64,000 nt of DNA, taken from positions 1 to 64,000 of the forward strand of contig NZ_JANHDH010000004.1 of the NCBI RefSeq assembly GCF_026616195.1, in the 5' to 3' direction. Numbering within the stretch: position 1 is the stretch's first letter; every line of letters starts with the position of its first letter. Of this stretch, positions 8,677 to 56,028 are shown one piece after another. Below the pieces are notes generated by a model. That model was not told where the DNA came from and made no database searches. It worked only from the letters and a program-made list of their open reading frames with translations. The position numbers and the translations under genes are program-made. The DNA comes from Haloarchaeobius amylolyticus (GTDB taxonomy: Archaea > Halobacteriota > Halobacteria > Halobacteriales > Natrialbaceae).

Positions 8677-9912
8677 ATGGAGGTCGTCCGCAACATCCAA
8701 GTAAAGCTCGACGTTCCCGAGGACGCCCATAGCGTTCTCGATGAGACGTTCGAGCAGTTCCGACAAGCGGCTCAGTACGTCGCAAACACTGGATGGAGCG
8801 ACGACCCTACCCAGATCGAGGACACAAAGAACACGCTCCACGGCCAAACCTACGCTGACGTTCGGGAGCAAACCAGTCTGCAAGCCAGTCTCGTCCAATC
8901 CGCCCGCAACCTCGCCGCAGACGCACTCGGCAACTGCAAAGACCGTATTCTCGAGGACGGCAAGAAAGCCAGCAAGCCTGAGTTTCGTGGAAGCGTCGTC
9001 GTGTACAACGGGCGTACCATCACTTACCACGACGACCACGTCACCCTCGCCACCGTGGACGACCGCGTGACGGCCGAGTTCGTCATGCCCGAAGACGACG
9101 AGGGCACACCGTTCGCGGAGTATTGGACGCCAGAGTGGGAACGCAAGGAATCCACGCTCCACGAACGGGACGGCACGTACTACCTCCACGTCGCAGTCGA
9201 GAAAGAAGTCGAACCTTCGTCTGCTGATTCTGGCGACGAGCAGACCGAGAACGGAGTGGTTCTCGGCGTCGATTTAAACGTGGACGGCTACCTCGCTGTC
9301 ACCAGTACGGGAGCATTCTATGGCAACGCAGACCACCTTAACCACAAGCGCGACGAGTACGAGCGTCGGCGCGGTAACCTGCAACAGACGGGCACTCGCT
9401 CCGCACACCTCACTATCAAGGGCATCGGCTCGCGGTTCGCACGGTGGAGCGCCGACTACCTCCACCGCGTGTCGAAGGCTATCGTCCGTGAAGCCGTAGA
9501 GAACGATTGCACTGCAATCGGGTTCGAGAACCTGAAACATATCCGCGAGCGTATCTCGAACGCCAGCAAGTTCCAGCAGTGGGCGTTCCGCGAACTCCAA
9601 CAACACGTCGAATACAAAGCCGAAGAAGAAGGCATCGATGTGGATGACGTTTCGCCTGCCTATACGAGTCAGCGATGCAGTCACGGTAAGTGCGGATTCA
9701 CGCACGAAGCCAACCGCGACGGTGATGAGTTCGAGTGTCTGAAGTGTGGGAAAGAACTGCACGCCGACTACAACGCCGCCCGGAATATCGGGTGGCGTCT
9801 TGTCCAGCACTGGCTCAAGTCTGGTGCTGGACGGGCCACCAGTCAACTGGCTCTGAAGTCAGGGACGCTGAACGCGAACGGTCGATTCCGACCTACTGCC
9901 CTTCGCAGTTAG
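8677..9912 (+). CDS. tnpB: TnpB, RNA-guided endonuclease of an IS200/IS605-type element
   Basis: This 411-residue protein appears intact. The RuvC-like site is complete: Asp199 in GVDLNVDG, Glu284 in GFENLKHI and Asp364 in HADYNAARNI. A zinc ribbon (C334, C339, C354, C357) sits between the second and third acids, as in the family. TnpB uses an RNA made from the element's 3' end to cut DNA and favour element retention. No tnpA is present, so this is an IS1341-type element that depends on a transposase elsewhere. It is one of five TnpB genes here and the only one on this strand. AT-rich sequence immediately upstream probably holds the left end. Confidence 0.93.
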   Translation: MEVVRNIQVKLDVPEDAHSVLDETFEQFRQAAQYVANTGWSDDPTQIEDTKNTLHGQTYADVREQTSLQASLVQSARNLAADALGNCKDRILEDGKKASKPEFRGSVVVYNGRTITYHDDHVTLATVDDRVTAEFVMPEDDEGTPFAEYWTPEWERKESTLHERDGTYYLHVAVEKEVEPSSADSGDEQTENGVVLGVDLNVDGYLAVTSTGAFYGNADHLNHKRDEYERRRGNLQQTGTRSAHLTIKGIGSRFARWSADYLHRVSKAIVREAVENDCTAIGFENLKHIRERISNASKFQQWAFRELQQHVEYKAEEEGIDVDDVSPAYTSQRCSHGKCGFTHEANRDGDEFECLKCGKELHADYNAARNIGWRLVQHWLKSGAGRATSQLALKSGTLNANGRFRPTALRS

Positions 9913-11866: not shown

Positions 11867-13117
11867 CTACGACACGACTTGCTCTCTCGTGCAAAACGTC
11901 CCGCTCTCGCGGTCGAACAAGTGGGTCGATGGCTGTGCCACACAGCCGTTACTCCTATCCTCACCGTGAGGACTCGGAGTTATCTTCTGGCGCATATTCT
12001 CCGCCCCGTTACAATCCGCGTTCCCGACCAACCCGCATGACGAGCAGACGTACAGCCCACGTTCGACACGGTTCGACTTTGTGGCGTCACCACACCGCGA
12101 GCACGTTTTCGAGGTGTTCCACTCGTTTTCCTTCAGCACATCGACTCCTCGAATCTCGCCTTTGTATTCGAGGTACTGGTAGATGCGGTCGAACGCCCAC
12201 GAGTGCAGTTTCTTGTTGCCGGTCTTGCCCCAATCGGATTCCCGTACGTCTTCAGGCCAACTCACCGCGAGCGTGCCGACACCACGTTCGATACACTCGG
12301 TGATGATGGTGTCCGTGAGAGTGTGGTAGAAGTGCGTCTCGCGGTCAGCGAGTTTCTGACGTGCCCACATCGACTTCTCTGATGGGCCGTTCTCACCTTC
12401 AGTGTCGTACTCGGCCTGCTTGAAGTAGTGCTTGTCTTGCTTGAGCGAGTTGCCCGGATACAGCACGTATTCATCAGGGAACGCGACCGTGGCGATGTTC
12501 TTGATGCCAAGGTCGATGCCTGCAACTTCGTCGCCTGCTGAAGCGTTCGTCTCGAGCTTGACTTTGCAGACGAAGTGCAGTTCCCACTCGTCACCGTTCC
12601 AGACGGCACGAACATTCTGTACGCTGTTGACTTCCGAAAGGTCAATATCAGGGCGGGTCTGGTACTCGCAGAGCAGAAAGTCTGACCAATACTCTTTGAG
12701 GTTCTTTCCCTTGCTGAGTCGGACGCGGTTGTTCTCAGGGTCGTGTTTGAATCCGTCTTCTTTGAACGTGACCGTACTACGTGGTCGTTGGTCACCGTGT
12801 TTGCGGTAGCCGGGCGGATTCGCCTCTGGGTCTCTCTGTCGCAGGTCGAACCACGACTGGAAAGCGTCAGAGAGTTCTTCAATGACTTTCTGACTAGATT
12901 GCGCGTTCAAGTCTTTCCAGCACGAATGGTTTTTCATATACGATTTCAGCACACCTTCGTTTGGGATTTCGCTGGTTGCATCCCAAATTCGGTCTGCTGT
13001 CCATCGTGCGACGTTCCAGATCTTCGAGGCGGAGTCTCCGAGCGAATCGAGGCCATCGCAGACCTGCCGGTGGTTCCGAATAGAACCAACATAAGTTCGA
13101 GTGACCTCAATCGCCAT
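11867..13117 (-). CDS. tnpB: TnpB, copy 1 of a near-identical pair
   Basis: This 416-residue protein is very similar over its full length to the one at 49696-50946. RuvC acids Asp202 (GIDLGIKN) and Asp368 (GNADCNGAEN) are clear, and the zinc ribbon is C339, C342, C358 and C361. At the usual middle-Glu position the motif reads LAVSWPEDV, so the nearest Glu (289) is displaced by about two residues. The copy at 49696 has the same motif, so this is a property of the subgroup rather than damage. No frameshift is visible. No tnpA accompanies it. Confidence 0.9.
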   Translation of the reverse strand: MAIEVTRTYVGSIRNHRQVCDGLDSLGDSASKIWNVARWTADRIWDATSEIPNEGVLKSYMKNHSCWKDLNAQSSQKVIEELSDAFQSWFDLRQRDPEANPPGYRKHGDQRPRSTVTFKEDGFKHDPENNRVRLSKGKNLKEYWSDFLLCEYQTRPDIDLSEVNSVQNVRAVWNGDEWELHFVCKVKLETNASAGDEVAGIDLGIKNIATVAFPDEYVLYPGNSLKQDKHYFKQAEYDTEGENGPSEKSMWARQKLADRETHFYHTLTDTIITECIERGVGTLAVSWPEDVRESDWGKTGNKKLHSWAFDRIYQYLEYKGEIRGVDVLKENEWNTSKTCSRCGDATKSNRVERGLYVCSSCGLVGNADCNGAENMRQKITPSPHGEDRSNGCVAQPSTHLFDRESGTFCTREQVVS

Positions 13118-14704: not shown

Positions 14705-15634
14705 TCAGCTAGTCTCTTGTCTCGACGAGGAAAATCTTGGACTCACGAACCGTCGAGCCCGATGCGGGACATCGAGTCCTCTATTTACTGGTAGAAAGAT
14801 GGAGTCCTGGTCGCCGGCGACGACTGCTGCAAGCAATTCGTGCTTGCAGAGGACTCTCCAGGGTTGATCGTGCTTGTATGGACACGAACAGACAAGGCCA
14901 TCTGACCAGGGGATGAACGGATACCGTCCCCCAGTCGTATACTCTCCCACGAGCAGTGGTGCCGGGAGTTCGATTCCGAACTCGCTTGGGCGTGCTGCCG
15001 CAGAGCTCTCACTGCAGGACAGGTCTGCTTCTCGAATGACGTCCTTCGCTGGGAGGTTGTGGGATCGGGCATACTTGGAAGGTGTTTGATCGTCATCTCC
15101 GAGGACAACCATCCCGACAAGTGTGTTCTGCCTGGTAAGGGCCTCAGCGTTTGGCTGTGCCCCGAGGACACCCTCTAAGAGCGTCCCGTACGACGATTCT
15201 TTCAGAACTTGGTACAGATTGAGCCAGGGAATCAGCTTCCTGTACCAGTTCGCACGGCGCTTGCGTTCAGAGTGAAGCGCTTTTCCCGGATCTGTCGCTG
15301 ACCGACACTGCCGCAAGCGGTGAGTGAGAAACGCAGGTGCCTCACTGAGTGCTTGATCATCCTCGAAGAGATCGTAGTATCGCTCTTCTTCGTTGAACGT
15401 CCGACGGCACGTCTCTTCGGCGTATTTCAGACCGACTGGTTTCGTCTTCCCTGACTGTTTCCAGGGATCTGCGTTCTCAGGACTGCCCTTCCAAGAGTTG
15501 TAGTTCTCCAGTAATTGATCGCGGCGGATTGGACCGCCAGCCATGAAATCGAGCCGAATACGGTGTTCGACTGGTTCAACTGCCGGAGGATCAATTTCAA
15601 CATCGTAGTCGTGTAGAGCGTCGGTTCCACTCAT
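14705..15634 (-). CDS. SWIM zinc-finger protein downstream of the VWA gene
   Basis: This is a 309-residue protein if started at MSGTDALHDYD. An earlier in-frame ATG at 15709 would add 25 Arg-rich residues. A SWIM-type finger lies near the C-terminus: CSCPYK, spacer, LCKHE. The N-terminal 200 residues are unassigned, with many Arg, Glu and aromatic residues. It lies 137 bp after the VWA gene on the same strand and is probably the last gene of that series. The SWIM finger is seen directly. The role is unknown. Confidence 0.7.
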   Translation of the reverse strand: MSGTDALHDYDVEIDPPAVEPVEHRIRLDFMAGGPIRRDQLLENYNSWKGSPENADPWKQSGKTKPVGLKYAEETCRRTFNEEERYYDLFEDDQALSEAPAFLTHRLRQCRSATDPGKALHSERKRRANWYRKLIPWLNLYQVLKESSYGTLLEGVLGAQPNAEALTRQNTLVGMVVLGDDDQTPSKYARSHNLPAKDVIREADLSCSESSAAARPSEFGIELPAPLLVGEYTTGGRYPFIPWSDGLVCSCPYKHDQPWRVLCKHELLAAVVAGDQDSIFLPVNRGLDVPHRARRFVSPRFSSSRQETS

Positions 15635-15771
15635 TGACCCTGGTGGTAGTCGAAGGGGCGGTAGCGTCGATGACGCGGCATGGATGTTTCTTCGTTGCAT
15701 TCGTCTCACGGGCTGAACTGGACGCCGCCCTGTACCCCATTCGGGTGGATAAACCGAGGTGAGCGTGGAGT

Positions 15772-18285
15772 TCAGAAGCCGACGAGGAGGCTGGCGAACT
15801 GATCGAGTCGGTTGTCTAACTGGTCCCCATCGTAGATCGTCGCTTCCCGCTCGTAATATGCGGCGAGTTCTGAGGCATCAGCCGATAGCTTTCCTGTCTG
15901 AGTGTCAGTGGCGATCGTGAGAGCACAGATCGGTGCAGGAGAGGCGCGGATCTGTTCGATGACGTCGTCGACGCTACTGGGCTCTCCGTCGGTCACGGCC
16001 ACAATAAGCGGTTCGTCGCGGTGGTCCTCGACGAGCTGACTTGCAAGTTTGAGTGCGTCTGCCAACGGCGTGCCCCCGCCACAGTCTGTGTCCAGTAGCG
16101 TCGCCTGGATGTGTCGCGTCTCGACTGAGAACGGCTTTACGAGCCGGGCTTGGCTGTCGATGAAATCGACGATCGCGACATCGATCCCCAGCCCTTCGGC
16201 GGCGACGGCGAACCGCGCTAGTGCCTTCGTTGCGACCTCGATCTTCGGGGGGTCGCCGTTCCGCATTGAGCCAGACCGGTCGAGAACCAACACTAGTGCA
16301 TATCGTTTCTCACGCCCCGGCGTGTCGACCTTGCAGACCCGAGGGTCACCAATCAAAAGCCGATGTCCTGCAGTGGTATCGTAGCTGCCGGCGGTCAAGC
16401 CTCGCCGGACACCACGTTGACGGTCGAGACGGAGCTGTTTCTCGAGCGTGCCAGCAACCTGGGCAGCGCCGTCTTCGATGTCGGCCCATACCCCTGGAGA
16501 TGCCGGGTCGTCATTGACTGGGACGATCTCCAATTCGTCGAGCTGGCCTGGGCCCCCAGCAGTGCCGCCGGCTGCTTGATCGTCTGAATTATCTCGGTCG
16601 AGTCGTCGGGCGAGGCCTTCCAGTTCGCGCTCTAGGGCGTCAGTGTCGATACCCTCTCGATCTGCTTCGTCGTGAGCCGCCCTCCGGTCCGCTTCGAGTG
16701 CCCCTTCGTAGGCGTCTTCCTCGTCAGCGGAATTCCGGTCGAGTGCCTCCGCGTGCGCTGGGACGGGATCGGCTGCCGAGTCTATCTCCTCGTGGGGTGA
16801 GGGACTCGTAACCGGTAGCTCTCTTCCGTTATGATCCTGTTCCAGACCTTCTCGAGAGTCGGTTGTCTCTCTCGTTTCGCGGTCGTTCTGAGAAGCGTCG
16901 GCAGCGTCGAAGTCTCCGATGGTCGACTGACGTGCAGCAATAGAATCGTCATCCCTCTTCTCCTCCGCTGGGGACTGTCCACGTTGCGGGGAATCGAGGT
17001 GTGATCCAGGTTGCTCAATGGTGCGAGCGAGTGCCCGCGCTCTCGTGTCTGTGGGGTTCGAGGTCTGCGACGGCTGGTCTTCATCGCCGTCGGTCGGGCT
17101 TGGTGTCTCGTCGGGGCCGGTAGCTGACGTATCGGTGCCATGAGAACCAGGGGCCTGAGGAGACGGTGGTGCTTGGAGCTCCTCGTCGAATGAATCCGGA
17201 GTAATCGAGGGCTGGCTGAGGACGTCCTGGAATGGATCGTCAGTTGCGCTCCTGTCGAGTTGCGGGTATTCGTCGGTTCCGGAAGATTCAGATTCTGAGG
17301 AGGGATTGGAGTCTACATCAGATTCCTCAGACTCGCCCTGATCTGGGGACTGTGTTGATCCTTCGGAGCGCTCCTCTAGGAGTGGGAAAATTGCTGACTG
17401 CCACGTCTCGACGACCAATTGGGCTCGCCGTACAGATGCCGTCTTGTCGTGGCTGTGGGTGATATCGTCTGGTTCTGCACTCCGGATTGCGAGGGCATCC
17501 CGCGCTAACGTTTGGAGTGACTCCTGAACAGTGTCGAATCCCGAGGCATCCGTCTCCGACGCGAAGAGTATACGCTCATCATCTTCGTCGAGAAGAACCT
17601 CTGTGATACCCGTCGGAAAGATTGCCCACTCGTAGAGGGCGCTCGTCACTGCATCCCAGAACGAGAAGAGGACTTGCTCGTCGGCAGGGATATCATCGGG
17701 AACCTGCGAGTGGATTCTACGGGTGAGTTCGAGGCGTATCTCGGCGTTGTCGCTGAAGTTTGCTCCCTCGATCGCTTCCTGTTCGATGGCACCGTCCTCG
17801 ATGATATTGACGAGGTCGTGAACCTGCTGGCGATAGTCGGAATCAATCTCGGATTCGAGGAGTTCTGCGATGGGGGCGATGGCTGTTTTGAGAATATGGA
17901 GTAGTTCGTGAAAGGCGAGACCGAACTGGTGGGCGTGGTCGGCTGTCAGCTGATCGTTCACCGGAATTCGGTCTATCGGTGCTGGTTCCGTCGTCACTAG
18001 AATGAGGAATTCAGCGTCGACACTTTCGAGTAACTGTGCGGCCTGCTGCCGTTCAAAATCGGTCGCATCACTTCTTGCGAGCGCATCGGGTTCTGCAGGG
18101 AGGACCGCCGCGGTCTTGACGGCTGGCGTAAGAACGACTTCTACGTCGACACCTGAAGGCAGATGCCCGCAGATGAACGCCCGGAGCCTGTCGGCCCTAC
18201 TAGCCGAGGTGCGAACGCGAGAGGCGGTATCGGGTGTGAGCCTCTCTAATTGAAGTATTGTATCGGCTGAATGAGTATCGGACAT
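15772..18285 (-). CDS. VWA-domain protein with N-terminal HExxH motif (CobT-like architecture)
   Basis: This is an 837-residue protein. The N-terminal domain (about 1-330) contains FHELLH (His126, Glu127, His130), matching HExxH, and a following IIEDGAIEQEAI helix as in CobT-like or metallopeptidase-like VWA proteins. A very acidic, Ser/Pro/Asp-rich linker of about 300 residues comes next. The C-terminal VWA domain (about 640-837) has the MIDAS elements DRSGSM, a GGGTPLADAL threonine loop and TDGEPS, so it should bind a divalent metal and a partner protein. VWA proteins of this kind normally work with a MoxR-type AAA ATPase. One is encoded at 24423-26033 on the same strand, separated from this gene by the defence island. 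Confidence 0.85.
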   Translation of the reverse strand: MSDTHSADTILQLERLTPDTASRVRTSASRADRLRAFICGHLPSGVDVEVVLTPAVKTAAVLPAEPDALARSDATDFERQQAAQLLESVDAEFLILVTTEPAPIDRIPVNDQLTADHAHQFGLAFHELLHILKTAIAPIAELLESEIDSDYRQQVHDLVNIIEDGAIEQEAIEGANFSDNAEIRLELTRRIHSQVPDDIPADEQVLFSFWDAVTSALYEWAIFPTGITEVLLDEDDERILFASETDASGFDTVQESLQTLARDALAIRSAEPDDITHSHDKTASVRRAQLVVETWQSAIFPLLEERSEGSTQSPDQGESEESDVDSNPSSESESSGTDEYPQLDRSATDDPFQDVLSQPSITPDSFDEELQAPPSPQAPGSHGTDTSATGPDETPSPTDGDEDQPSQTSNPTDTRARALARTIEQPGSHLDSPQRGQSPAEEKRDDDSIAARQSTIGDFDAADASQNDRETRETTDSREGLEQDHNGRELPVTSPSPHEEIDSAADPVPAHAEALDRNSADEEDAYEGALEADRRAAHDEADREGIDTDALERELEGLARRLDRDNSDDQAAGGTAGGPGQLDELEIVPVNDDPASPGVWADIEDGAAQVAGTLEKQLRLDRQRGVRRGLTAGSYDTTAGHRLLIGDPRVCKVDTPGREKRYALVLVLDRSGSMRNGDPPKIEVATKALARFAVAAEGLGIDVAIVDFIDSQARLVKPFSVETRHIQATLLDTDCGGGTPLADALKLASQLVEDHRDEPLIVAVTDGEPSSVDDVIEQIRASPAPICALTIATDTQTGKLSADASELAAYYEREATIYDGDQLDNRLDQFASLLVGF

Positions 18286-18673
18286 ACGAATGCACGAGAT
18301 GTTGTGCTCTCCTCAATCTCTTATGCGAGATAAACTGCTATAGAGAGTAGGTGCCTCAGAATTCACCGACCTGAAAGACTGAGAAATTAACGGGTCTGCT
18401 CTTCATCGAGTATCGGAGAGAGGGCTGTCAACCGTTTTAGATGAGGCACTTGTCGTGGGGTGAACCCGTGTTCTATCGTAGAAGGCAACAATCATCAATT
18501 CTGACTAAGCGAGTTCCTTTCGATTCTGTCCTGCCGGGAGGTCGAATTCGATGGTTTTGGCGGGCCTAGAAGACTGAATTCAAATTCACTTCCTCGCCAC
18601 TTTTATACGGGTGGATACTCTATGACTCTCTGTTCCCCGATAGAAAACGACCCGGGAACCACGAGGTCGATCA
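18286..18673. other. 388-bp gene-free stretch at the left edge of the defence island
   Basis: No convincing coding frame is seen. A TTTTATAC box at 18601-18608 is a likely archaeal TATA element for the gene starting at 18674. The rest is mixed-composition DNA without clear repeats. It is one of the two places to look for an insertion junction of the island (the other is 24278-24422). Confidence 0.5.
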
Positions 18674-19507
18674 ATGAGTTCGTATTCGACGCCCCCGAGC
18701 ACTTGTAGAGGCCAGCAAACACTGCACGATGTCGCTACTTCTCACCTGATCCGTCAGTTCCCTGCCGGTGTTATCCTACGTTACGAGGCCGACAATGACC
18801 GTCTGGAGGAGTTTATTCTCAGGAACACGCTCATCACCTACGTGATGTTCAACTTCTGTGACGCGATGGAACTTATCGGAGAGCATGGATCTCTGCACGC
18901 TTACCTTTCCGACTGGCAGATCCCCATAGTCACCGCGACCGAGAAGGACGAGATCCTCAAGAACCGAACGCGGGACGATATCCGCCATCTTCTAAAGCGA
19001 ATCCAGCCTGCGGTCTACGTCCCGGACGCTGGGAAGGTCTACGGCAACGATCTGGAGTACAAGCAGCGTGGCGGCCTACAAGAATACCGAGTCCGAGTTG
19101 ACTGGGTCGTCAACGAGATTGAACGGCAGGGGTGGGAAATCGAAGTTCTACCCCTCGCCAAGGCGATGGAGCCGTGGCAGTTCAAGGAGATGCTCCCATG
19201 GTATCGGGAGCATGATTTCCAGAACTTCGCCTTCTACGCACGACAGTACTACACTCACGGGAATCGATTCAACGCCCTTAGGAAGCACACGAACAATCTC
19301 GTGGACATCGTTGATCCCGAGAACGTCTTCATGATTGCTCTCCACGGCAAAACCCACTTGCGGAAGCTCCCGTCTCGGGTCAACGGTGCGAGTGGTCTCA
19401 AGCAGTTCATCGACAACTGCGACTACGACAACGAACAGTTCGAGCAGTGGCGGACTGACCTCGAAGCGAATTCCCTGAACGCAGGCGACGACCTCCTGGA
19501 GTATTAA
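18674..19507 (+). CDS. Unknown protein, first gene of a cassette with a DsbA-like protein
   Basis: This is a 277-residue soluble protein. Strands and helices alternate regularly: PAVYVPDAGK, WEIEVLPLAKAM, NFAFYARQYYT, VFMIALHGKTH. The pattern is compatible with a TIM barrel, and the motifs faintly recall the tRNA-guanine-transglycosylase/DpdA group, but no catalytic signature can be confirmed. The N-terminal 100 residues are helical. The next gene starts 2 bp after its stop, so they form one operon. It lies beside the two CBASS operons in a defence-like block. Confidence 0.6.
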   Translation: MSSYSTPPSTCRGQQTLHDVATSHLIRQFPAGVILRYEADNDRLEEFILRNTLITYVMFNFCDAMELIGEHGSLHAYLSDWQIPIVTATEKDEILKNRTRDDIRHLLKRIQPAVYVPDAGKVYGNDLEYKQRGGLQEYRVRVDWVVNEIERQGWEIEVLPLAKAMEPWQFKEMLPWYREHDFQNFAFYARQYYTHGNRFNALRKHTNNLVDIVDPENVFMIALHGKTHLRKLPSRVNGASGLKQFIDNCDYDNEQFEQWRTDLEANSLNAGDDLLEY

Positions 19508-19509
19508 CA

Positions 19510-20577
19510 ATGGGTAAGGGTCCTACTGGAACGAGCGAGAGCACCGACAACGAACCAGAAGAGGAAGAACCCAAGGTCCACCCGGACCAGACGGACTTCG
19601 ACGAACACGACACTCTCGAGAACGACGATCCCGACCAAGAGGAAACCCCAACGCCGCCCGCTGGAGGCGGCGGTGGTAGAGGTGGTGCAGGTGGTGGAGG
19701 AGGGCCTGGTGCCGCTCCTGTTACCCCCGGCGGTGAGGAGGCTCCTGAAACAGACGAACCCGAAGATGAGCCAGAAAAGAAGTCGCCCGAAGCGGACGAG
19801 CCGCCAGAGCCACCCGAGGAGACGGAGCAGTCCGAGGAGACGGATGACACCGAAGACGAAGAAGAGGACGAGGAGCCAGAGGAAAAGGAGGCGGAGATAA
19901 TCGTCTACACCGACCCCTGGGACATCACGGGCTGGGGCAACGAACCGGATCTCCGTCGCCTGCAGGAGACGTTCGGAGACAAACTCACGATCGAGTACGA
20001 CGTCCTCCCAGCTCGTACGATTGAAGAGTGGAAGGGCGACACCGAGATGCCCACCGTCGACGGCCCGGACCTTCCCGAATCCACGGCGGATTCATACCGG
20101 GCGCTCACCGCTGCTCAGGAGCAGGGTCTCGCCCGCGAGTACCTCCGACGACTCCGGATCGCAGCGTTATCTGAGGGCCGTGACATCGAGAGCGAGGACA
20201 TCCTTGTCGAGCTCGCCGCAGAGGTCGGACTCGACGCCGGCCAACTCCGAGAGGATATGGCGAACGTCGATATCGAGGTCCCAGAACCCGTCGAGGAGAC
20301 GCCCCATATGGAGGTCACGATTGCCGACATCCCGCACTTCTGGACTGAGAACATCGAATTCGGTCGGATCTTCGGACGAATGGTTGGTGAGGGTGTTCAG
20401 CCACAGCCGACGGGACGGATGATTCCTCAGTTCGTTGCCGAGTACGAACCGGTCACTACCGCCGAGGTGGCGGAGACCTTTGAGCTGGACCAAGTCCAAG
20501 CAGCCGAGGAACTCCGGCAGCGGGAGAACGTCGTGTCCCGCGACTTCGGATCCGGAACATTCTGGTTCCCAATCTAA
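19510..20577 (+). CDS. DsbA/FrnE-like thioredoxin-fold protein lacking CXXC, with a disordered acidic N-terminus
   Basis: This is a 355-residue protein. Residues about 1-130 are low complexity: Glu/Asp/Pro-rich with a Gly-rich patch (AGGGGGRGGAGGGGGPG). From about 131 the sequence follows the DsbA-like oxidoreductase fold: IIVYTDPWDITGWGNEPDLR, then a helical insert with LTAAQEQGLAREYLRRLRIA and AEVGLDAGQLREDMA. The place where the family has CPWC reads WDITGW and contains no Cys, so redox activity is not expected. A winged-helix-like tail (TTAEVAETFELDQVQAAEEL) ends the protein. Coupled to the unknown gene upstream, it may act as a binding or adaptor module. Confidence 0.75.
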   Translation: MGKGPTGTSESTDNEPEEEEPKVHPDQTDFDEHDTLENDDPDQEETPTPPAGGGGGRGGAGGGGGPGAAPVTPGGEEAPETDEPEDEPEKKSPEADEPPEPPEETEQSEETDDTEDEEEDEEPEEKEAEIIVYTDPWDITGWGNEPDLRRLQETFGDKLTIEYDVLPARTIEEWKGDTEMPTVDGPDLPESTADSYRALTAAQEQGLAREYLRRLRIAALSEGRDIESEDILVELAAEVGLDAGQLREDMANVDIEVPEPVEETPHMEVTIADIPHFWTENIEFGRIFGRMVGEGVQPQPTGRMIPQFVAEYEPVTTAEVAETFELDQVQAAEELRQRENVVSRDFGSGTFWFPI

Positions 20578-20696
20578 GGACACCTGCACAGTATATGGCG
20601 AAGACTGATAGGGACACTCCGAGCTGAGTACTTACCAATAATTAGCCGGTTAGCGCACTTGTCTGGAGGGGGTAATCGATCGGTCGGATAATCGGT

Positions 20697-21383
20697 TTAC
20701 TGCTGGGGCTCATCGCGATCTCGAGTGAACTCCATCGTTCCATACGTCGTTTTCTGGCTGCCGTCCTGCTCGGAGGCACGGGCAGGTCCAGTGTAGTAGT
20801 AGCCTGCCAGTCGGTCTATCGACTCGCGGTATGTGAGCCGCGCCGTCCCGTCGTATGGTCCTTCATCTTCTGACTGCTCGTCCACGTCTGCACCCTCGTT
20901 CTCGTACAGATAGGAGACCTTCGTGTGCAGCGTTCCCTCGGTCTGGAAGCTGGCTCCCGTGCTCACCGAGGGCGACCGTTCAGTCTCAAAGTGCACGATA
21001 ATCTTGCTCCACGTCTGCTCGATATCCAGTGTGGCCGGCATCGGTTGGTAGCCGCCATCAGCGAGGTAGTCGTCTGGAATCTCGCCTTCGTAGTTGGATT
21101 TTATTTCTCCTTCCCAGTGTCCGGTGAGGTCGGGGACGGCTACTATGAAATTGGGCATCCAGGGCTTGTTCCACAGTCGACGATCGAACACTCGATGGAT
21201 CAGGCCGAACACGACCCCGAACGCCAGACCAGGAATCAACAGTGGTGGCATCTCGAACGGGATTTGCTGGTAGAGCCACGGGAAAACGTAGACGTTCAGC
21301 ACAAACACGATGACGAACGCGATGACGCCCAAGATTGCCAGCAACGTCGATCGGAACTCGTTATCGCTGGAATAGACGTGCAT
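20697..21383 (-). CDS. cap15: Cap15 membrane effector of CBASS operon A
   Basis: This is a 228-residue protein. Two N-terminal transmembrane segments (about residues 11-33 and 44-62) are followed by a C-terminal beta-rich domain with DLTGHWEGEI, LDIEQTWSKIIVHFET and YYYTGP. This is the Cap15 (two-TM beta-barrel) layout. Cap15 proteins sit in the membrane, bind the cyclic nucleotide made by the partner CD-NTase, oligomerise and disrupt the membrane, killing the infected cell. The ATG overlaps the end of the CD-NTase gene by 23 bp. A paralogue with the same motifs lies at 23319-23963. The family call rests on architecture, motifs and the neighbour. Confidence 0.85.
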   Translation of the reverse strand: MHVYSSDNEFRSTLLAILGVIAFVIVFVLNVYVFPWLYQQIPFEMPPLLIPGLAFGVVFGLIHRVFDRRLWNKPWMPNFIVAVPDLTGHWEGEIKSNYEGEIPDDYLADGGYQPMPATLDIEQTWSKIIVHFETERSPSVSTGASFQTEGTLHTKVSYLYENEGADVDEQSEDEGPYDGTARLTYRESIDRLAGYYYTGPARASEQDGSQKTTYGTMEFTRDRDEPQQ

Positions 21384-22275
21384 TCATCTGGTTGGACTCG
21401 GCGTTCTCCCAGTACGTTTCCAGGGCATCGACAAACAGCTTGGCGTGCCAGGTGTCCCACTTCGTAGACCCACTGCCGAAAAGGTCCGTTACTTTATTCT
21501 GGCACTTCCAATCGGAGTAGTCAGTTTCCTGCAAATAGTCCACGATCTTGACGAACCGCTCCTGAAGGTCATCGGTGTACCGGCCCGGTGGGACATTGTA
21601 GAGGAGACACTCGATGAAATAGGACGCGACGATGTCGTCGGTGATGTAGTCGTCCTCGACGACCTCCTTGCGAGTGTTCTTGAACATCCGCACGGTCTCC
21701 TTGAACCGATCATCGGTCTCGTCCTGCTTGTCTGCGCCGTGATTTCGGTGGCGCGTTGGGTAATTCACAACTGAGGAGTTCGATCCCGTAGGCCAGAAGA
21801 TAATCCCCTCGTAGTAGCCCTGCGGGAAGTTGTAGTAGTGCTTGTACTTGACGCACACCACAACGTCAGCGTCGAGCGGGAGACCTGGAGCCGAGATCTC
21901 GATAGCATTCCCAGATGGATCGAAGGTACCCTCCGGGTAGGTGTTCTGGAGGACGCTCAGGACGTCGTCGCGGAACTCGTCGTACCCGTAGTCGAAGTCC
22001 TCGTCGTCGATATCTTCCTGGTCTTCCGGATCGAGGTCGTGGAGATTGAAGTACTCGAACTCGTCGAGGCGAACGACGATATCAACGTCACTCGAGTCGC
22101 GGATGATTGTGTTGTTCGCGTACGACCCTTGCAGAAAATCGTGGAATTCGACATCATCGAGTGTGCCGCTATCGTTGAGTGCGTTCCGGATCTTCGTATG
22201 TGTGTCCTGCGCGGACTGGAGGGCAGCCCGTTTTGGGTCGGTCCAGCTTTCGAGCGTGTCCTCATCGATCGCCAT
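21361..22275 (-). CDS. CD-NTase (cGAS/DncV-like nucleotidyltransferase) of CBASS operon A
   Basis: This is a 304-residue protein if started at MAIDEDTLESW, the start supported by alignment with its paralogue. It belongs to the pol-beta-type nucleotidyltransferases. Gly50-Ser51 in LQGSYANNT begins the motif, Asp63 and Asp65 in SSDVDIVV are the first two metal ligands, and Asp137 in LDADVVVC is the third, so the active site is complete. CD-NTases sense infection and make cyclic oligonucleotides that switch on the effector, here the overlapping Cap15. No ancillary genes (E1/E2, HORMA/TRIP13) are present, so the operon is of the minimal two-gene type. The clade and product cannot be told from this. 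Confidence 0.9.
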   Translation of the reverse strand: MAIDEDTLESWTDPKRAALQSAQDTHTKIRNALNDSGTLDDVEFHDFLQGSYANNTIIRDSSDVDIVVRLDEFEYFNLHDLDPEDQEDIDDEDFDYGYDEFRDDVLSVLQNTYPEGTFDPSGNAIEISAPGLPLDADVVVCVKYKHYYNFPQGYYEGIIFWPTGSNSSVVNYPTRHRNHGADKQDETDDRFKETVRMFKNTRKEVVEDDYITDDIVASYFIECLLYNVPPGRYTDDLQERFVKIVDYLQETDYSDWKCQNKVTDLFGSGSTKWDTWHAKLFVDALETYWENAESNQMNARLFQR

Positions 22276-22433
22276 AGCAGCCTCCAAAAGAAACTGACAT
22301 CGTTTCGAGGTTAGGCGCGATAATCACGACTCAAGATGCCTTCTACTGCTCCTTAACCGTTCGCAGAGCAAGGTGAAAGTGGAACCGGGAAGATTTTGAC
22401 GTTTGGTCAGGAAGGGTCTGTAACTCCCTCTCC
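22276..22433. promoter_or_regulatory. Shared divergent promoter region of the two CBASS operons
   Basis: The 158 bp between two CD-NTase starts in opposite directions must hold both promoters. No perfect long palindrome or obvious operator is seen. Expression of both operons is probably linked through this spacer. Confidence 0.55.
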
Positions 22434-23315
22434 ATGGCGATAGACTCAGGGACATTGGAATCGTGGGCGCAGTACGATAGCGGCCCTATTGATTCCGCAA
22501 AGCGCACCCACAACCGAATCCAGAACGAGCTGCAGGCCAGCGACACGCTCGCCGACGCGAATTTCGAGACGTATCTGCAGGGGTCGTACGCGAACTACAC
22601 CATCGTCCGGGCGAGCAGCGATGTCGACATTGTGGTCCAGCTCAAAGATGTGTACTACGTCGACCTCTCCGGTCTCACGTCAGATGAACGGGACAAATGG
22701 CGGCGGCACTCCGGCGACCCGGATTACAGCTGGCAAGCGTTCCGAACCGATGTCGCCGACTTTCTGGAGTCTCGCTTCGGATCCCCGGCTGTCGACCCGG
22801 TCGGGAAAGCCATCGAGGTCGATACAAGCAAACTACCGCTCAACGCCGACGTGCTCGTCTGTGCGGATCACCGAGACTACTACAACTACCCGAACGGCTA
22901 CCACTCGGGTATCGCGTTCTTCGACCTCACCAACACAAAAATAGTCAATTATCCGAAACAGCACATCAGTAAGGGGAGCACCAAGCAGTCGAGCACGAAC
23001 GACCGGTTCAAGGAGACCGTCCGCATCTTCAAACGAGCACGGAACTATCTCGTTGACAACAATGCGCTAAATAAGGAGAACGTACCGTCGTACTTCATCG
23101 AGAACCTGCTTTACAACGTCCCGGACGGTCGATATACTTACGACAAGCAGGACCGCGTCAAGAAAATCCTTCGCTATCTCAATACGACAGACTACAGCGA
23201 TTGGACGTGCCAAAACGGCATCACCGACATGTTTGGGTCGGGAACCGCTGAGTGGAACACGCGGTACGCGGACCAGTACGTCAACGCGATGGTCAAACTC
23301 TGCGACAACTGGTAA
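22434..23315 (+). CDS. CD-NTase of CBASS operon B
   Basis: This 293-residue protein is clearly paralogous to the one at 21361-22275 over its whole length (shared TLESW, LQGSYAN, SSDVDIVV, RFKETVR, YFIE, LLYNVP and TDYSDW). The active site is complete: Gly50-Ser51, Asp63, Asp65 and Asp139. By eye roughly half the positions are identical, so this is an old duplication or two independently acquired relatives, not a recent copy. The Cap15 gene begins 3 bp after its stop. It should make a cyclic nucleotide for that effector. Whether it is the same product as that of operon A is unknown. Confidence 0.9.
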   Translation: MAIDSGTLESWAQYDSGPIDSAKRTHNRIQNELQASDTLADANFETYLQGSYANYTIVRASSDVDIVVQLKDVYYVDLSGLTSDERDKWRRHSGDPDYSWQAFRTDVADFLESRFGSPAVDPVGKAIEVDTSKLPLNADVLVCADHRDYYNYPNGYHSGIAFFDLTNTKIVNYPKQHISKGSTKQSSTNDRFKETVRIFKRARNYLVDNNALNKENVPSYFIENLLYNVPDGRYTYDKQDRVKKILRYLNTTDYSDWTCQNGITDMFGSGTAEWNTRYADQYVNAMVKLCDNW

Positions 23316-23318
23316 CCC

Positions 23319-23963
23319 ATGCACACATACTCTACAGACAACGACCTCCGGCCGAAAGTCTACGGTGTTCTGGCACTGCTCGCCTACGGGATTACGGTCC
23401 TCGTCGAGTTGGTGACCACGGCGCTTTCGACGGTCCTCCCATTTGCGGCAGGGTTCGTTGTCTCGTGGGGACTTGCATTCGCCATCATCTGGAAAATCCA
23501 CGATCGATGGTTCTGGAAGACCCGTATTGCACGAGCACTCGGGTTCACTCGCGTCCCGAACCTCAACGGCAAATGGGAGGGATGGATCGTCACCTCGTAC
23601 GAGGGAGACATAGACGACCAGGCGCTCCATCCGGATAACGATCCTACTGAGGACGGCCAGAAAATGAAAGCGTGGCTCGATATCGACCAGACGTGGCGGA
23701 AGATCAACGTCCACTTCGAGACTATCCAGACGCCGTCGGACAGTAACGGTGCAACGATGCTAACTGAGGAAGGGAAGTGGCCCAGCCTCAGCTACCAATA
23801 CGAAAACCCAGGCTCTCCACTTGTTGAGGGGTTGGATATGCACTTCGGGACTGCGTCTCTGGAGTACCGCGACGATGGCAACAGGGAGACGCTTGAAGGG
23901 CTCTACTACACTGGCCCAGGACGCGATAACAATGGTCTGATGTACTTCGAGCAGGTCGATTGA
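23319..23963 (+). CDS. cap15: Cap15 membrane effector of CBASS operon B
   Basis: This is a 214-residue protein. It starts MHTYSTDNDL, matching MHVYSSDNEF of the Cap15 in operon A. Two transmembrane segments lie at about residues 14-35 and 40-60. The beta-rich domain has NLNGKWEGWI, LDIDQTWRKINVHFET and LYYTGP. Predicted role: membrane disruption after binding the signal made by the adjacent CD-NTase. The gene follows the CD-NTase with a 3-bp gap, and a zinc-finger/glycine-rich gene follows 38 bp later on the same strand. The soluble domain differs enough from copy A that ligand preference may have diverged. Confidence 0.85.
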   Translation: MHTYSTDNDLRPKVYGVLALLAYGITVLVELVTTALSTVLPFAAGFVVSWGLAFAIIWKIHDRWFWKTRIARALGFTRVPNLNGKWEGWIVTSYEGDIDDQALHPDNDPTEDGQKMKAWLDIDQTWRKINVHFETIQTPSDSNGATMLTEEGKWPSLSYQYENPGSPLVEGLDMHFGTASLEYRDDGNRETLEGLYYTGPGRDNNGLMYFEQVD

Positions 23964-24001
23964 CCGGAACATCTTTGCGTTCCTGACAGCTAACGTGAGC
24001 T

Positions 24002-24277
24002 ATGACCGAGACGAAGAAGTGCCCTACCTGTGATGGAAGTGGTGCTACAGCTGATCCGCAGACGGGATTTGGAAACTGTCCGAAGTGCGACGGGACTGGA
24101 ACGGTTTCCCGAGGAATGCACGAAAATCTCACTCAGGGTCAGCGACAGGCTCTCGGGACCGGTGGTGGGGCTATTGCTGGCTTCGCAGCTGGCGGACCGG
24201 TAGGCGCAATAATTGGCGGAGGCCTCGGACTGATTTTCTCGACGGACGACGACGATGACGGTATTGGCGGCGCATGA
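24002..24277 (+). CDS. DnaJ-type zinc-finger plus glycine-zipper small protein
   Basis: This is a 91-residue protein. Two CxxCxGxG repeats (CPTCDGSG and CPKCDGTG) at about residues 7-33 form a DnaJ-like zinc centre. The C-terminal half is Gly/Ala-rich and hydrophobic (GAIAGFAAGGPVGAIIGGGL), like a glycine zipper that could enter or associate with membrane, and ends in an Asp run. It lies 38 bp after Cap15 of operon B and could be cotranscribed. Similar small proteins occur widely, so a CBASS role is only suggested by position. Confidence 0.65.
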   Translation: MTETKKCPTCDGSGATADPQTGFGNCPKCDGTGTVSRGMHENLTQGQRQALGTGGGAIAGFAAGGPVGAIIGGGLGLIFSTDDDDDGIGGA

Positions 24278-24422
24278 TTGAGAATTGATCTATTAGCTAA
24301 CTGCCTCCGAATCGAGACCAACTAACATAGGAGCTGACAAGGGGACAATCCACGGGGGTCCCACCGCTGTACATCTTGGATACTTTCGGCACGACATGCT
24401 TGAATTCTCGCCCGGTCACTCC

Positions 24423-26033
24423 TTACAGATAGTCATTCAGTGTCTCGTAGGTGTCCTCCGGATACTGATTCGGCTCGGCGACCGCCCACACCTCGTTCTT
24501 GACCGCCGCCTTCGGTGAAGCACCGTCCTCAATGTGCTCACAGAGAATCGTCAGATTCCGAGTCGAGAGAGTTGGCCAGCTCTCGTTCTGCCGGCTCTGA
24601 TGAGCGAACTGGACGATCTTCCTGAGCGTCCCGCGATCCACAACTTCGTGACTGGTATTCACCTGTGCATCCAGCGTGACGACCTCTTCCTCGACGTCCT
24701 GAATGTAGGGCTGCTCCAGCGCTCGGAACCGGCCACGAGTGGCCGAGTTCATCGGCTCGGAATCACGGTACTCCCTGGTCGGTGGGTTCATCGTAATCAC
24801 AATTCGCGCAGACGGATGAGGTTCGACCAACTCACCGTGGGCCTTCACGAGGAGTTTCCCCTCATTGAGCAGGCGGTGTAGAGACATCGCGGCGCCGGCT
24901 CGCATCACTGGAAACTCATTGAGCACCAGCACCGACCCGTTCAGAAGCGCTTGCTTTGCGGGACCGTTCCGCGGTGCAATTAGCCCGTCCTCGGTGGGGG
25001 TGAGCGGTCCGAAGAGATCCTCCGTGTGGGTTGCCTCGTCACAGTCTACCGAGACGTAGCCCCGATTCGTCCGGTGACACAGGTACTTGACCAGATAGTT
25101 CTTCCCGGAGCCTCGAGGGCCAACAACCCGAACTGGAACCAGCCCACGAGCGAGTTTCTTCGCGAGGAGTTCGTCCAGCGGAAGTTGAAGCCGTGGTTCG
25201 GTCGGAGCTGCTGGCGGGACGACGTCGCCCGCTTCGTCGACTGGGAGGGCGTCATCACCGGCGTCAGGATGTGTCGCTGCCTTCGGTACGTCAGGATGGT
25301 CAGGGTTATCGAGGATGTGGAGGCCTGTTGGGACAGGATCCTGTGCATTCCGCCCGATATCGGACACATACTGTGCGTCGACGGCATCAGGCGATAAGCC
25401 ATCCGTGCGGTAGCGGGGTTCCCCCACGGCCTCGTTGGCAGTCGTAATGTCGAGGACCTGAGCGACACCATGCTGCCCAGTTTCATCGAGTCGTCGAGAG
25501 TATCGGGCGTCAGCAACTCGCGCAAGCCACACACCGACCGGAACGTGCCGGGGAGCGGCCTGAAGAATCGCCTCTGCTCGGCTCTCTGTTAGCGTGCCAG
25601 TCAGATTCGCGAGGTCAGCAACTTCCGCGTCGACTAGCTCGGTGAACGTCGTGTAGCCTGCGTTTCTGAGTGCAGTCGCAATGCTTTCGGTGACGACATC
25701 GAGAATTTCGAAATCGTCACCCGCAGACGCGCCAGCGGGACCACCGAACGCTTCCGTAATCACGGGCGGTTCTGGACCCTGTGGAGAGACGCCGACGATT
25801 GTCGTGCTCCCACCAGACCCCCGGTCGAGCGTGAACGTCCCATCCGCTGCTCCAGCATCGAGGAGATCGGCGGCCTCTTGCTCACCGATATCGACGTAAT
25901 CACAGACTCGAAGCGTAACGCGTTCGACCGGGACCGTCCCGCCCTCGCGCTTGAGGAGGCGATGCACCAGGTGCGAAAGGACGACGAGCGGTTCTGGCGA
26001 GTCGATCGTCGAGTCGGGTTCTGATGAAGACAT
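24423..26033 (-). CDS. MoxR-like AAA+ ATPase with helix-hairpin-helix N-terminal region
   Basis: This is a 536-residue protein. Residues about 115-160 contain a helix-hairpin-helix-like segment (LRNAGYTTFTELVDAEVADL). The AAA+ core (about 290-500) has a P-loop GPRGSGKN (305-312), a Walker B VLVLNEF (about 368-374) and a sensor-1 TMNP (Asn416). Asn replaces Ser/Thr after the P-loop Lys, and Asn replaces the Walker B Asp, although Glu373 is kept, so ATP hydrolysis may be altered. MoxR-type ATPases remodel targets together with VWA proteins. The likely partner is the VWA gene at 15772-18285. It follows the gene at 26097-27593 by 63 bp. Confidence 0.85.
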   Translation of the reverse strand: MSSSEPDSTIDSPEPLVVLSHLVHRLLKREGGTVPVERVTLRVCDYVDIGEQEAADLLDAGAADGTFTLDRGSGGSTTIVGVSPQGPEPPVITEAFGGPAGASAGDDFEILDVVTESIATALRNAGYTTFTELVDAEVADLANLTGTLTESRAEAILQAAPRHVPVGVWLARVADARYSRRLDETGQHGVAQVLDITTANEAVGEPRYRTDGLSPDAVDAQYVSDIGRNAQDPVPTGLHILDNPDHPDVPKAATHPDAGDDALPVDEAGDVVPPAAPTEPRLQLPLDELLAKKLARGLVPVRVVGPRGSGKNYLVKYLCHRTNRGYVSVDCDEATHTEDLFGPLTPTEDGLIAPRNGPAKQALLNGSVLVLNEFPVMRAGAAMSLHRLLNEGKLLVKAHGELVEPHPSARIVITMNPPTREYRDSEPMNSATRGRFRALEQPYIQDVEEEVVTLDAQVNTSHEVVDRGTLRKIVQFAHQSRQNESWPTLSTRNLTILCEHIEDGASPKAAVKNEVWAVAEPNQYPEDTYETLNDYL

Positions 26034-26096
26034 AGTGCGTATGCGAGACTCTGTTAGGAGCCCCGTCGCCCGCTTTCGGGCTGATAAATACCAGCC

Positions 26097-27593
26097 TCAA
26101 GACGAGCCTTCGATGTCGTCGAGGCGGTGCTGAACCCGGTCGTGGAGTCGTTGGGCGGCCCCGTCAGTGAGATTCGCTTCAGTATCTACCTCGATGCCAG
26201 GAATATCGATGACGTCTTCGAGCGCGTCGCTGAGCGTCTGCTGACTGGCTGGCAGAACACGCTCTTCGGGTTCGTCGGTTTGCCGGTCGTGTTCTTTCAT
26301 CGCCAGTTGAATCATCATCGCTGGTTTTCGAAGCAGTTCGCCAGCGACCTCGAGATACTCTTGATGGGTATTCGATGCCCAGGACCCCTCGTACTCATCG
26401 AGGAGTGCGATCAACAGGGAGAGCTGGAGATTGTACACGGTTGGTCGCGACGATGGAGACGCCAGCGTCGTGGCTCGGTCCGCAGCGGCCTCGGCGTACC
26501 TGTTGGCGACGCCCCAGTAGCGGTAGCAGGTAGCCGCATCGAACGGAAGGTCGTCGAAGTCGTAGGCGATGGCCCGCGTTCTTCGGATCGCCAAATCGAC
26601 TCTCACCAGGCGGTCGGCGATGTCGTCATAGATCGCCTTCCACCACTCGTTGATCGGAACTCTGTCGTTCGCCCGTTCGTGGTCGGCGTCGGTGGCCCGA
26701 CCGTAGTGACGGCGAGTGTACCGCTTGCCCGTGTCGGGGACGATAGTCCCGGTCTCGGGGAAGTAGAGGATCGGTTTCGCCCACAGCGTCTGTGTCCCCC
26801 GGAAATCGTAGCCGGTCTCGAATCCCCCATAGACGACGAGATCTGGCTCGGTTGCCCCAGAGACGCTGGTGACACCGTCGATATCCTCCTCTACCTCAGG
26901 CTCTTCACTTGCCGTGACGGTGTGTTCGAGACTGGGACAGACGACGAACATCTTGAGGAGTCCACCCCAGTCGCGGTAGCTTGCCCAGCCGAATGCCTCA
27001 GTCTCACCGCGCTGCTGGAGTGCTCCCACGATTGGAAGGTACGCCTCTTGCGGATTGATGATAGAGTATCGATCCGAGGCGATCTGCCAGCGGAACTTGA
27101 CATCGAAGCCCAGCGCACACAGCGCCTTGCGGCGTTCGTCGACGATATCCTTGTGATCTCGGACACGAACCAACGGGTCGGACGACGAGTCTGTGGCGAT
27201 CTCCGAGAGGGACTGACCGGTCGCCGTCTCCAGCGTATCGATATCCAGACCCTCGACATTGCGGAGAGCTTCGATGTTGATGGTCCCGTCGACGCCGACG
27301 AACTCGTTTGTGGCCCAGAGTTCTCCCGAACTCGCTTGTGGGAGGACGTTGAGAACGTCTTTCAGGGAACGAGGGTTCGGATCGAGACACCCCGTTTCTG
27401 GTGAAACGCCGTCTGGATACTCCGCGTCGTCTGCCGGCGTCAACCCTGCAAACGCGTGCGTTGCTTCCTGTTCTAGGAGGTCGAGGACCGAAATGGATGC
27501 AGCAACTGATTGGTGGTTATCCTCGCCTGAACGGGAGTTCGACGTGGAGTTCTCTCGCTCACGGCTCGCTTCTGACTGTGTATGTGTCGACAT
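26097..27593 (-). CDS. Large haloarchaeal protein, DUF932-like, upstream of the MoxR gene
   Basis: This is a 498-residue acidic protein. The middle part (about 165-215) reads GFDVKFRWQIASDRYSIIN, EAYLPIVGALQQRGETEAFG and GGLLKMFVV, which resembles DUF932-type plasmid proteins. A helical C-terminal half has conserved-looking Trp, Tyr and Arg (NEWWKAIYDDIADRL, CYRYWGVANRYAEAA). DUF932 proteins are common on plasmids and viruses and their function is unknown. It starts the minus-strand series with the MoxR and VWA genes. The long opposite-strand open frame here is a GC-codon shadow. The family assignment is tentative. Confidence 0.65.
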   Translation of the reverse strand: MSTHTQSEASRERENSTSNSRSGEDNHQSVAASISVLDLLEQEATHAFAGLTPADDAEYPDGVSPETGCLDPNPRSLKDVLNVLPQASSGELWATNEFVGVDGTINIEALRNVEGLDIDTLETATGQSLSEIATDSSSDPLVRVRDHKDIVDERRKALCALGFDVKFRWQIASDRYSIINPQEAYLPIVGALQQRGETEAFGWASYRDWGGLLKMFVVCPSLEHTVTASEEPEVEEDIDGVTSVSGATEPDLVVYGGFETGYDFRGTQTLWAKPILYFPETGTIVPDTGKRYTRRHYGRATDADHERANDRVPINEWWKAIYDDIADRLVRVDLAIRRTRAIAYDFDDLPFDAATCYRYWGVANRYAEAAADRATTLASPSSRPTVYNLQLSLLIALLDEYEGSWASNTHQEYLEVAGELLRKPAMMIQLAMKEHDRQTDEPEERVLPASQQTLSDALEDVIDIPGIEVDTEANLTDGAAQRLHDRVQHRLDDIEGSS

Positions 27594-35408: not shown

Positions 35409-36461
35409 TTACGTCGTGCATGGTTCTCCCTTTCTGCTCGCAATGTTCTCTGCGGCGTTCAAATCGGCGTGCCGACCACGACCACAGTTTGGACAGGAGA
35501 AATGGTCAGCGGACCGATTCCCAGTAGCTCCACACGCCGAACATCGTTGGCTGGTATACGATGGATCAACTTTCTCGACAGGGATTCCCTCCACTGCGGC
35601 TTTGTAGATGATGAACCGCTGGAGTTGGCCGAAGGGCCACGAATGAACTCCGGGCCACGGACACCGTTCTTGGATTCCGTCTAGGTTCTCAATTCGGAGT
35701 ACTGGATCTTCGAATTGAGCCGTGAACTCAACGAGGCGTCGAGAGAGCGTGTGGTTCAAAGTCGTCATCCGACGATGTTCTTTCTTACCTACACGGTTGA
35801 GTGCGCGAAGCGCACCCGCTTCCTGCAGCGACTCGCGTAGGGAACGATACTTACGTCGAAGATATTTCGCCTCGCGACCAGAGACAAGGAGAGATTCATC
35901 CTCTGTGGGGGCGACAGCAGCGAGAATATGCCGCTCGCCGATATCGACCCCAACAGGAGTTTTCCCCTCCAATGGCTTCTCCTGAGTGACAGTGAATGAA
36001 CAGTACCACTCGCTACCCCGGCGGTAGACCTGAAGAAGTGATTTCTTTAGTTCACCGGCTAGTAGCTGCTGGAGGACATCTTCGATTTCGTCATAGACAG
36101 CGATCGGCGTGTACCACCACCGCGAGATACACGGGAAACCGATTACGACGGTCCCATTCTCAGTCTGGTCAACTTCCCAGTTTTGGTTGTTAATCCCAAA
36201 TGGAATGCTATTGTTGTACTGGACAGCACCATCCTTCGAATACTCCGATTTCGCTTCGCGGATCGCCTGAGACTGGATTACTGCATACAGACCATTCTCG
36301 ATGCCAGCCGAAGTGATCGACTGTACCAACTCACCGCTTTCCCAGCCATCAATCAGCCACTGCTTGGTTTCTGCATAGAGGTGACTGGCTCGCTGCCATC
36401 CCCGGCGGCGGGCCCACGAAGGATTGTGAAATTTCGTCGTGATAGTCGATGTCGTCATCAA
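35409..36461 (-). CDS. tnpB: TnpB, compact type
   Basis: This is a 350-residue protein, shorter than the other four here. Its RuvC acids are all in place: Asp173 (GVDIGERH), Glu258 (RIENLDGI) and Asp333 ([10 protein letters not shown]). The zinc ribbon is C307, C310, C323 and C326. It appears complete and active. It belongs to a different subgroup from the other TnpBs, showing that several IS1341-type lineages have entered this replicon. Its right end cut a PIN-like gene. No transposase gene accompanies it. Confidence 0.92.
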
Positions 36462-56000: not shown

Positions 56001-56028
56001 TGACATCTATCCCACCTAATCGTGGGAT
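56001..56028 (-). mobile_element. Right end of the TnpB element with hairpin ATCCCAC-ctaatc-GTGGGAT
   Basis: A 7-bp dyad at 56009-56028 spans the tnpB stop codon. The element then ends with GATGTCA (TGACATC at 56001-56007 on the plus strand), the terminus shared with the other three minus-strand elements. Confidence 0.5.

Follow-up and report, generated by a model that had tools for sequence, protein, structure and literature searches.

The conjugation of a nucleobase to a protein became known in 2025 from one type of CBASS (Wassarman et al. 2025, PMC11996544). In type IV CBASS, Cap9 is reported to attach 7-carboxy-7-deazaguanine to the Gly2 residue in an MGGS motif (PMC11996544; PMC13279940), and Cap10, an essential accessory of the system, is a remodelled TGT-family protein that binds the NDG-modified N-terminus of the CD-NTase (PMC11996544). 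N-terminal glycine motifs, MGGS in the CD-NTase and MGTS in QatB, are required together with an unstructured tail (PMC13279940).

Here we analyse a gene pair in a stretch of 64,000 nucleotides of Haloarchaeobius amylolyticus DNA (contig NZ_JANHDH010000004.1, positions 1 to 64,000), called the window below, in whose numbering coordinates are given unless a locus is named. We propose, at a probability of roughly 0.45, that the pair forms a Cap10-type antiviral module in which the CBASS cyclase has been exchanged for an adaptor. The first part of this proposal, a Cap10-like protein with an exchanged partner, merits more confidence than the whole.

The gene pair and its local context

The preliminary description of this DNA reported a two-gene cassette at the edge of a CBASS block. 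Indeed, two intact ORFs separated by 2 bp were found at the coordinates it gave, adjoining two CD-NTase/2TM CBASS cassettes:

18674-19507, + strand: gene 1 (P0001), TGT-fold (TIM-barrel), Cap10-like protein, 277 aa (PADLOC, AF2 model and fold match)
19510-20577, + strand: gene 2 (P0002), tailed Cys-less protein of YjbH/DsbA fold, 355 aa (Pfam, AF2 model and fold match)
20697-21383, - strand: 2TM effector (PADLOC 2TM Effector, E<=6.5e-38 for the effectors)
21361-22275, - strand: CD-NTase (PADLOC Cyclase, E<=1.6e-89 for the cyclases)
22434-23315, + strand: CD-NTase (PADLOC Cyclase, same bound)
23319-23963, + strand: 2TM effector (PADLOC 2TM Effector, same bound)

Comparison with the copy in Haloplanus ruber gives pN/pS values of 0.093/0.643 for gene 1 and 0.196/0.606 for gene 2, indicating purifying selection on both. 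Because this sibling pair, whose gene 1 is 81% identical, has no CBASS beside it, the gene pair evidently travels on its own. Dependence on the adjacent CBASS is ruled out by the same observation, the Haloplanus pair being the nearest sibling, and the two CBASS cassettes at 20697-23963 are probably systems separate from the gene pair. These are divergent and paralogous, each with one CD-NTase and one 2TM effector; the best PADLOC model of either cyclase is PDLC00788, the class of the cyclase with a long MG tail that stands behind a gene 1 relative in locus L155.

In the window the gene pair and both CBASS cassettes sit between a MoxR ATPase gene and a VWA gene. Genes for a SWIM-like protein, a VWA protein, a MoxR AAA protein and a 498-aa protein (14705-27593) are split by the block at 18286-24422; in genome G101 (L144, 6655-14759) the same four flanking homologues are grouped together in the same order. 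Since G101 keeps these homologues together, the block looks inserted, and the defence cassettes have apparently entered a MoxR-VWA operon. A small ORF adjoining the CBASS block (24002-24277) encodes repeats of the form CxxCxGxG, zinc-finger-like in character, along with a segment that resembles a glycine zipper. TnpB-like ORFs occur across the window (8677-9912, 11867-13117, 35409-36461, 49696-50946 and 56016-57359), those starting at 11867 and 49696 being near-identical.

Gene 1, a TGT-fold protein

Gene 1 had been taken for a possible TIM barrel of no recognisable family; the predicted structure, which matches the TGT fold, bears out the barrel, and together with a PADLOC TGT match it shows the second statement to be wrong. 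Residues 24-263 match PADLOC model PDLC00912 TGT (E=6.3e-30), which we take to represent the TGT of type IV CBASS; its scores of 250-463 bits on gene 1 relatives in CD-NTase operons support that assignment. Searches of Pfam, NCBIfam and PHROGs gave nothing significant, there was no match to PF01702 (TGT/DpdA) up to E 5, and no profile of a known metabolic enzyme, an outcome that would have spoken against a novel system, matched gene 1. When the AF2 model (pLDDT 76, pTM 0.79; the one good model among five) was re-aligned with VIA-align, all 50 matches listed were TGT structures, the best with Z 17.1 and rmsd 3.4 over 247 aligned residues at 4% identity. Foldseek's own ranking put generic TIM barrels first, so that it is the PADLOC match and this re-alignment that support the assignment to TGT. 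Sequence searches of solved structures with gene 1, the family profile and a CD-NTase-class relative gave no meaningful match; solved Cap10 had no sequence match to gene 1 and was absent among the 50 fold matches listed.

Residues conserved round the putative pocket are D92, P117, Y123, P160, K163, Q191 and G241. The principal sites of gene 1 are:

18713-18724, + strand: QQTL motif, residues 14-17, in the N-terminal tail (alignments)
18947-18949, + strand: Asp92, near-invariant, kept in 48/49 members
19160-19162, + strand: Lys163 of P-x-x-K-[GA], 92% conserved; Q in L160
19379-19396, + strand: residues 236-241, VNGASG, last barrel strand (family alignment and predicted secondary structure)

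The QQTL motif is present in nearly the whole class of gene 1 proteins with DsbA-fold partners and absent in the other partner classes. In TGT enzymes the catalytic Asp is located on the last barrel strand. Residues 236-241 of gene 1 would be the equivalent site, an assignment made from strand order, since the family profile could not be aligned to those of haloarchaeal TGT and DpdA-like proteins. In the family alignment this strand reads [VI]xxA[ATSC]G, with no conserved acidic residue, and gene 1 lacks a CxCxxC zinc motif, having three scattered Cys only; it is thus a protein with neither a catalytic Asp nor a zinc site in evidence.

The same fold could belong to a DpdA-like base-exchange enzyme that places 7-deazaguanine in DNA or tRNA, whether the cell's own or viral, and to which gene 2 would contribute an accessory subunit; halovirus DNA does carry 7-deazaguanine, for which a host DpdA was suspected (PMC6884629). 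Against this stand the altered last strand, the missing CxCxxC motif and PF01702 match, the presence in the window genome of other, genuine TGT-family genes that carry FDS motifs, and the exchange of partners with CD-NTases, which a base-exchange enzyme hardly explains; we consider such a role very unlikely.

Gene 2, a YjbH-like fold without its redox site

The preserved DsbA/FrnE-like fold attributed to gene 2 is borne out as a DsbA fold, to which YjbH comes closer than FrnE. Its core matches Pfam DSBA (6e-9) and Thioredoxin_5 (1e-7) and is modelled by AF2 at pLDDT 92.3, and the closest solved fold is YjbH (6ghb_B, Z 24.4, 229/230 residues aligned); FrnE and other oxidoreductases reach Z ~16, mostly over the first 174 residues only. 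Because the YjbH match exceeds the oxidoreductases, we regard gene 2 as an adaptor-type fold whose redox site has been lost. Its parts are:

19510-19884, + strand: residues 1-125, the acidic, disordered Gly/Pro tail with MGKGPTGTSE at its start (composition and N-terminus comparison)
19921-19932, + strand: lost CxxC, Asp138-Ile-Thr-Gly141 (alignment with solo relatives, TDP[FM]CTW[CS]WG)
20302-20304, + strand: Pro265, invariant among the paired set (alignment column P140)
20404-20574, + strand: C-terminal winged-helix-like segment (YjbH matches cover 1-230, most others stop near 174)

The winged-helix-like segment is present in YjbH and lies outside the region that most other DsbA relatives match. 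The reported loss of Cys at the CxxC-type site is confirmed by alignment with solo relatives, where TDPMCTWCWG corresponds to TDPWDITGWG in gene 2: the two Cys have become Asp138 and Gly141, the core contains no Cys, and none of the paired gene 2 relatives has Cys in these columns. A redox role is rejected, there being no CxxC. Pro265 is probably the cis-Pro of a thioredoxin-type binding groove. Several of the closest CxxC-bearing relatives (L057-L063) adjoin GST-like genes, and these relatives are the likely housekeeping origin. The acidic Gly/Pro-rich extension of about 130 residues also proved real, the tail measuring 125-129 residues with 39% D/E; composition and N-terminus were compared across 24 paired relatives and 49 loci.

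Distribution and exchange of partners

Relatives of gene 1 were found in 56 of 392 genomes of the order. A search for the pair elsewhere brought its distinct loci to 25 (the window and 24 others), a recurrence that makes it more than chance, and gene 1 lies directly upstream of every full-length Cys-less gene 2 relative except L039, which is solitary and tail-less. Viral contigs, scanned twice, yielded no relative.

In other loci (L009, L011-L017 and others) a SMODS CD-NTase (E about 1e-19) stands downstream of the gene 1 relative together with a SLATT/2TM effector, and in plasmid records the CD-NTase behind gene 1 relatives is labelled by NCBI as 'CBASS oligonucleotide cyclase'; this set is a type IV-like CBASS whose operon carries no QueC. 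A third set has a small GDIV domain (YGDIVHD...VVNLP) downstream of gene 1, and plasmid records add proteins of ~100 residues, one of ~1000 residues and a second, long-tailed class of CD-NTase. Among these unannotated partners are the ~1000-aa protein L158:3472-5744 and the ~90-120-aa proteins L154:3292-3657, L159:3291-3644 and L160:3293-3565, all of which start MGGR[YF]GG or MGGRYGA. A maximum-likelihood tree built from 39 gene 1 proteins resolves the DsbA (n=25), CD-NTase (n=9) and GDIV (n=5) sets as one group each, with support of 98/94, 100/99 and 88/82, respectively, and two partner changes in all, the fewest possible, account for the three. The pattern suggests that an antiviral trick of the Cap10 kind uses exchangeable partner proteins.

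A shared N-terminus and PIP-box-like motifs

What these unrelated partner bodies mostly have in common is an N-terminal Met-Gly and a disordered acidic tail. The partner begins with exactly MG in 26/49 loci and has MG within six residues in 41/49, compared with a background of 16/193 neighbouring ORFs (8%) that begin MG. In many loci gene 1 and its partner overlap, the partner's ATGGG lying within the terminal ..HG stop of gene 1. The window's gene 2, with MGKGPTGTSE ahead of its 125-residue tail, fits the combination of MG and unstructured tail. Five DsbA-class partners read MFVFLGSYS, so by that start Gly is not their second residue. Three GDIV partners start MA, MP or MT, and their gene 1 proteins have lost K163, I221, A239 and W245; because these three members form one clade, the correlation between MG and K163 counts as one evolutionary event.

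A second shared feature is the motif Q-x-x-[ILMV]-x-x-[FYW], found within the last 45 residues of 34/39 gene 1 proteins (background 10/193) and within the first 60 residues of 19/25 DsbA-class partners (shuffled mean 0.27), and many pairs carry such PIP-like motifs on both proteins. A typical PIP motif is QXXhXXaa, where h is moderately hydrophobic and a aromatic (PMC4929162), and the FEN1 of the window genome has a C-terminal QTGLDNWT. The motifs of the window copy are degenerate: its gene 1 has no Q near the C-terminus, and QTDFDEH in gene 2 (residues 27-33; 19588-19608, + strand) is a degenerate form of the relatives' QT[GS][LIV]D[DE][YF]. Given the enrichment, the similar FEN1 tail and the known consensus, PCNA tethering is plausible for the family on sequence grounds.

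Regulators and deazaguanine genes

In many loci the gene just upstream is divergent and encodes either a CARF-winged-helix protein (Pfam HFX_2341_N; PADLOC CARF3 at up to E 1e-115) or a TrmB-like regulator. Examples of the former (CARF-wHTH, DUF6293/HFX_2341) are L095:8075-8986, L026:577-1488 and L076:2402-3286, among others. Divergent regulators, and those of the CARF type in particular, occur in all three main partner classes, the Haloplanus sibling included; the window cassette lacks such a neighbour and has no divergent CARF gene. The CARF regulators suggest cyclic-nucleotide control. Neighbours of gene 1 loci include Pbe, BREX, type II/IIG R-M and CBASS genes.

These regulators bear on a further explanation, namely that plasmid or island maintenance is served by the pair as a toxin-antitoxin or regulatory unit, in which gene 1 neutralises an adaptor-fold protein directed at a host factor. 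The two-gene operon with tight or overlapping junctions, the patchy spread with several copies on plasmids and the lack of a separate effector in loci of the adaptor form would all suit such a unit. However, simple toxin-antitoxin pairs do not have dedicated divergent CARF or TrmB regulators of this kind, and gene 1 relatives are parts of CBASS operons, which leaves this explanation quite unlikely.

No Cap9-like QueC was found in gene 1 operons. In the window genome PF06508 matches are confined to contig C1, the window being on C4, and the one full-length canonical QueC is off the window's contig. Neither QueC nor QueE was found in genome G131, which carries the CD-NTase form (L027); an archaeal TGT is present there. 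On the window's own contig another TGT-family gene, single-domain and with its FDSSAF motif intact (G000:C4:183364-184272, L130), is a candidate DpdA-like enzyme.

The missing QueC ligase nearby and the state of G131 are what one would see if gene 1 and gene 2 formed a complex through the tail with no nucleobase at all, the TGT pocket being a plain peptide site for a free glycine tail and the module a PCNA-tethered adaptor complex. The conserved MG and pocket, and the PIP-like motifs on both proteins, would fit such a complex equally. Haloarchaea nevertheless make deazaguanines for tRNA, and a TGT pocket is built for 7-deazaguanine. Cap10 of type IV CBASS, moreover, is reported to bind an NDG-modified tail (PMC11996544), and on balance we think a complex free of nucleobase rather doubtful.

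A proposed mechanism

In the reading we prefer, a Cap10-like module with an adaptor in place of the cyclase, the first Met of gene 2 would be removed and the tail would insert its N-terminal Gly, probably bearing 7-deazaguanine, into the TGT pocket of gene 1. Gene 1 would thereby hold or license its partner, which is the cyclase in type IV CBASS and the adaptor in the window cassette, and the adaptor would bind a target protein via its thioredoxin-type groove and winged-helix domain. We would guess that infection, possibly signalled by cyclic nucleotides, raises or releases the adaptor, and that the complex might be drawn by its PIP-box-like motifs to the PCNA of replicating viral DNA. We infer both the capture of the tail and its deazaguanylation from the published Cap9/Cap10 and QatB work. 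Confidence in the whole proposal is limited by the absence of a nearby Cap9, by a genome (G131) without QueC/QueE and by an adaptor without a visible effector.

More tentatively still, haloarchaea may possess a general 'reader plus tailed client' module in which a TGT-fold protein captures N-terminal glycine tails, probably nucleobase-modified, of clients that would comprise cyclases, YjbH-like adaptors, GDIV-domain proteins and proteins of ~100 and ~1000 residues. If so, CBASS would be just one user of nucleobase-protein conjugation, of which QatB is a suspected second substrate. Should tail and TGT-like reader act alike, the chemistry would serve many clients, one of them without any cyclase. 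The system lies in genetically tractable archaea and bears on deazaguanylation as a general immune mark, and many unannotated haloarchaeal pairs of 'hypothetical protein' and 'DsbA family' would gain a testable role.

Comparison with known systems

Unlike the DsbA/FrnE oxidoreductases, gene 2 has no CxxC. It shares its whole-length fold, including the winged-helix-like part, with YjbH/SpxH, the ClpXP adaptor for Spx (PDB 6ghb, 6gho), and differs in lacking CxxC, in its long acidic tail and in being archaeal. With TGT, ArcTGT and DpdA, gene 1 has in common the TIM-barrel fold (Z 17), and it departs from them in lacking a PF01702 match and in showing no clear catalytic Asp, zinc motif or PUA domain. 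Neither ClpXP nor Spx would be expected in haloarchaea, the setting of the gene 2 adaptor fold.

The qatABCD system offers a parallel in QatB, whose N-terminus combines the glycine motif MGTS with a long unstructured tail; QatB is, however, alpha-helical whereas gene 2 is thioredoxin-like, and the cassette contains neither a QueC-like QatC nor QatA or QatD. The window operon differs from type IV CBASS (Cap9/Cap10) in having no Cap9/QueC and no CD-NTase, its partner being a Cys-less adaptor of YjbH-like fold, and in most of the CD-NTase relatives found here the tail is far shorter than that of gene 2. Like type IV CBASS, it places a TGT-fold accessory next to a partner with an N-terminal Met-Gly, and haloarchaeal relatives of gene 1 accompany a CD-NTase and a 2TM effector. 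Of the undescribed system that the preliminary description suspected, one half stands, since a literature search found no description of the gene pair and it is apparently undescribed; it does not come from nowhere, gene 1 being related to a type IV CBASS accessory, and the cassette is better described as a relative of that accessory with a new partner.
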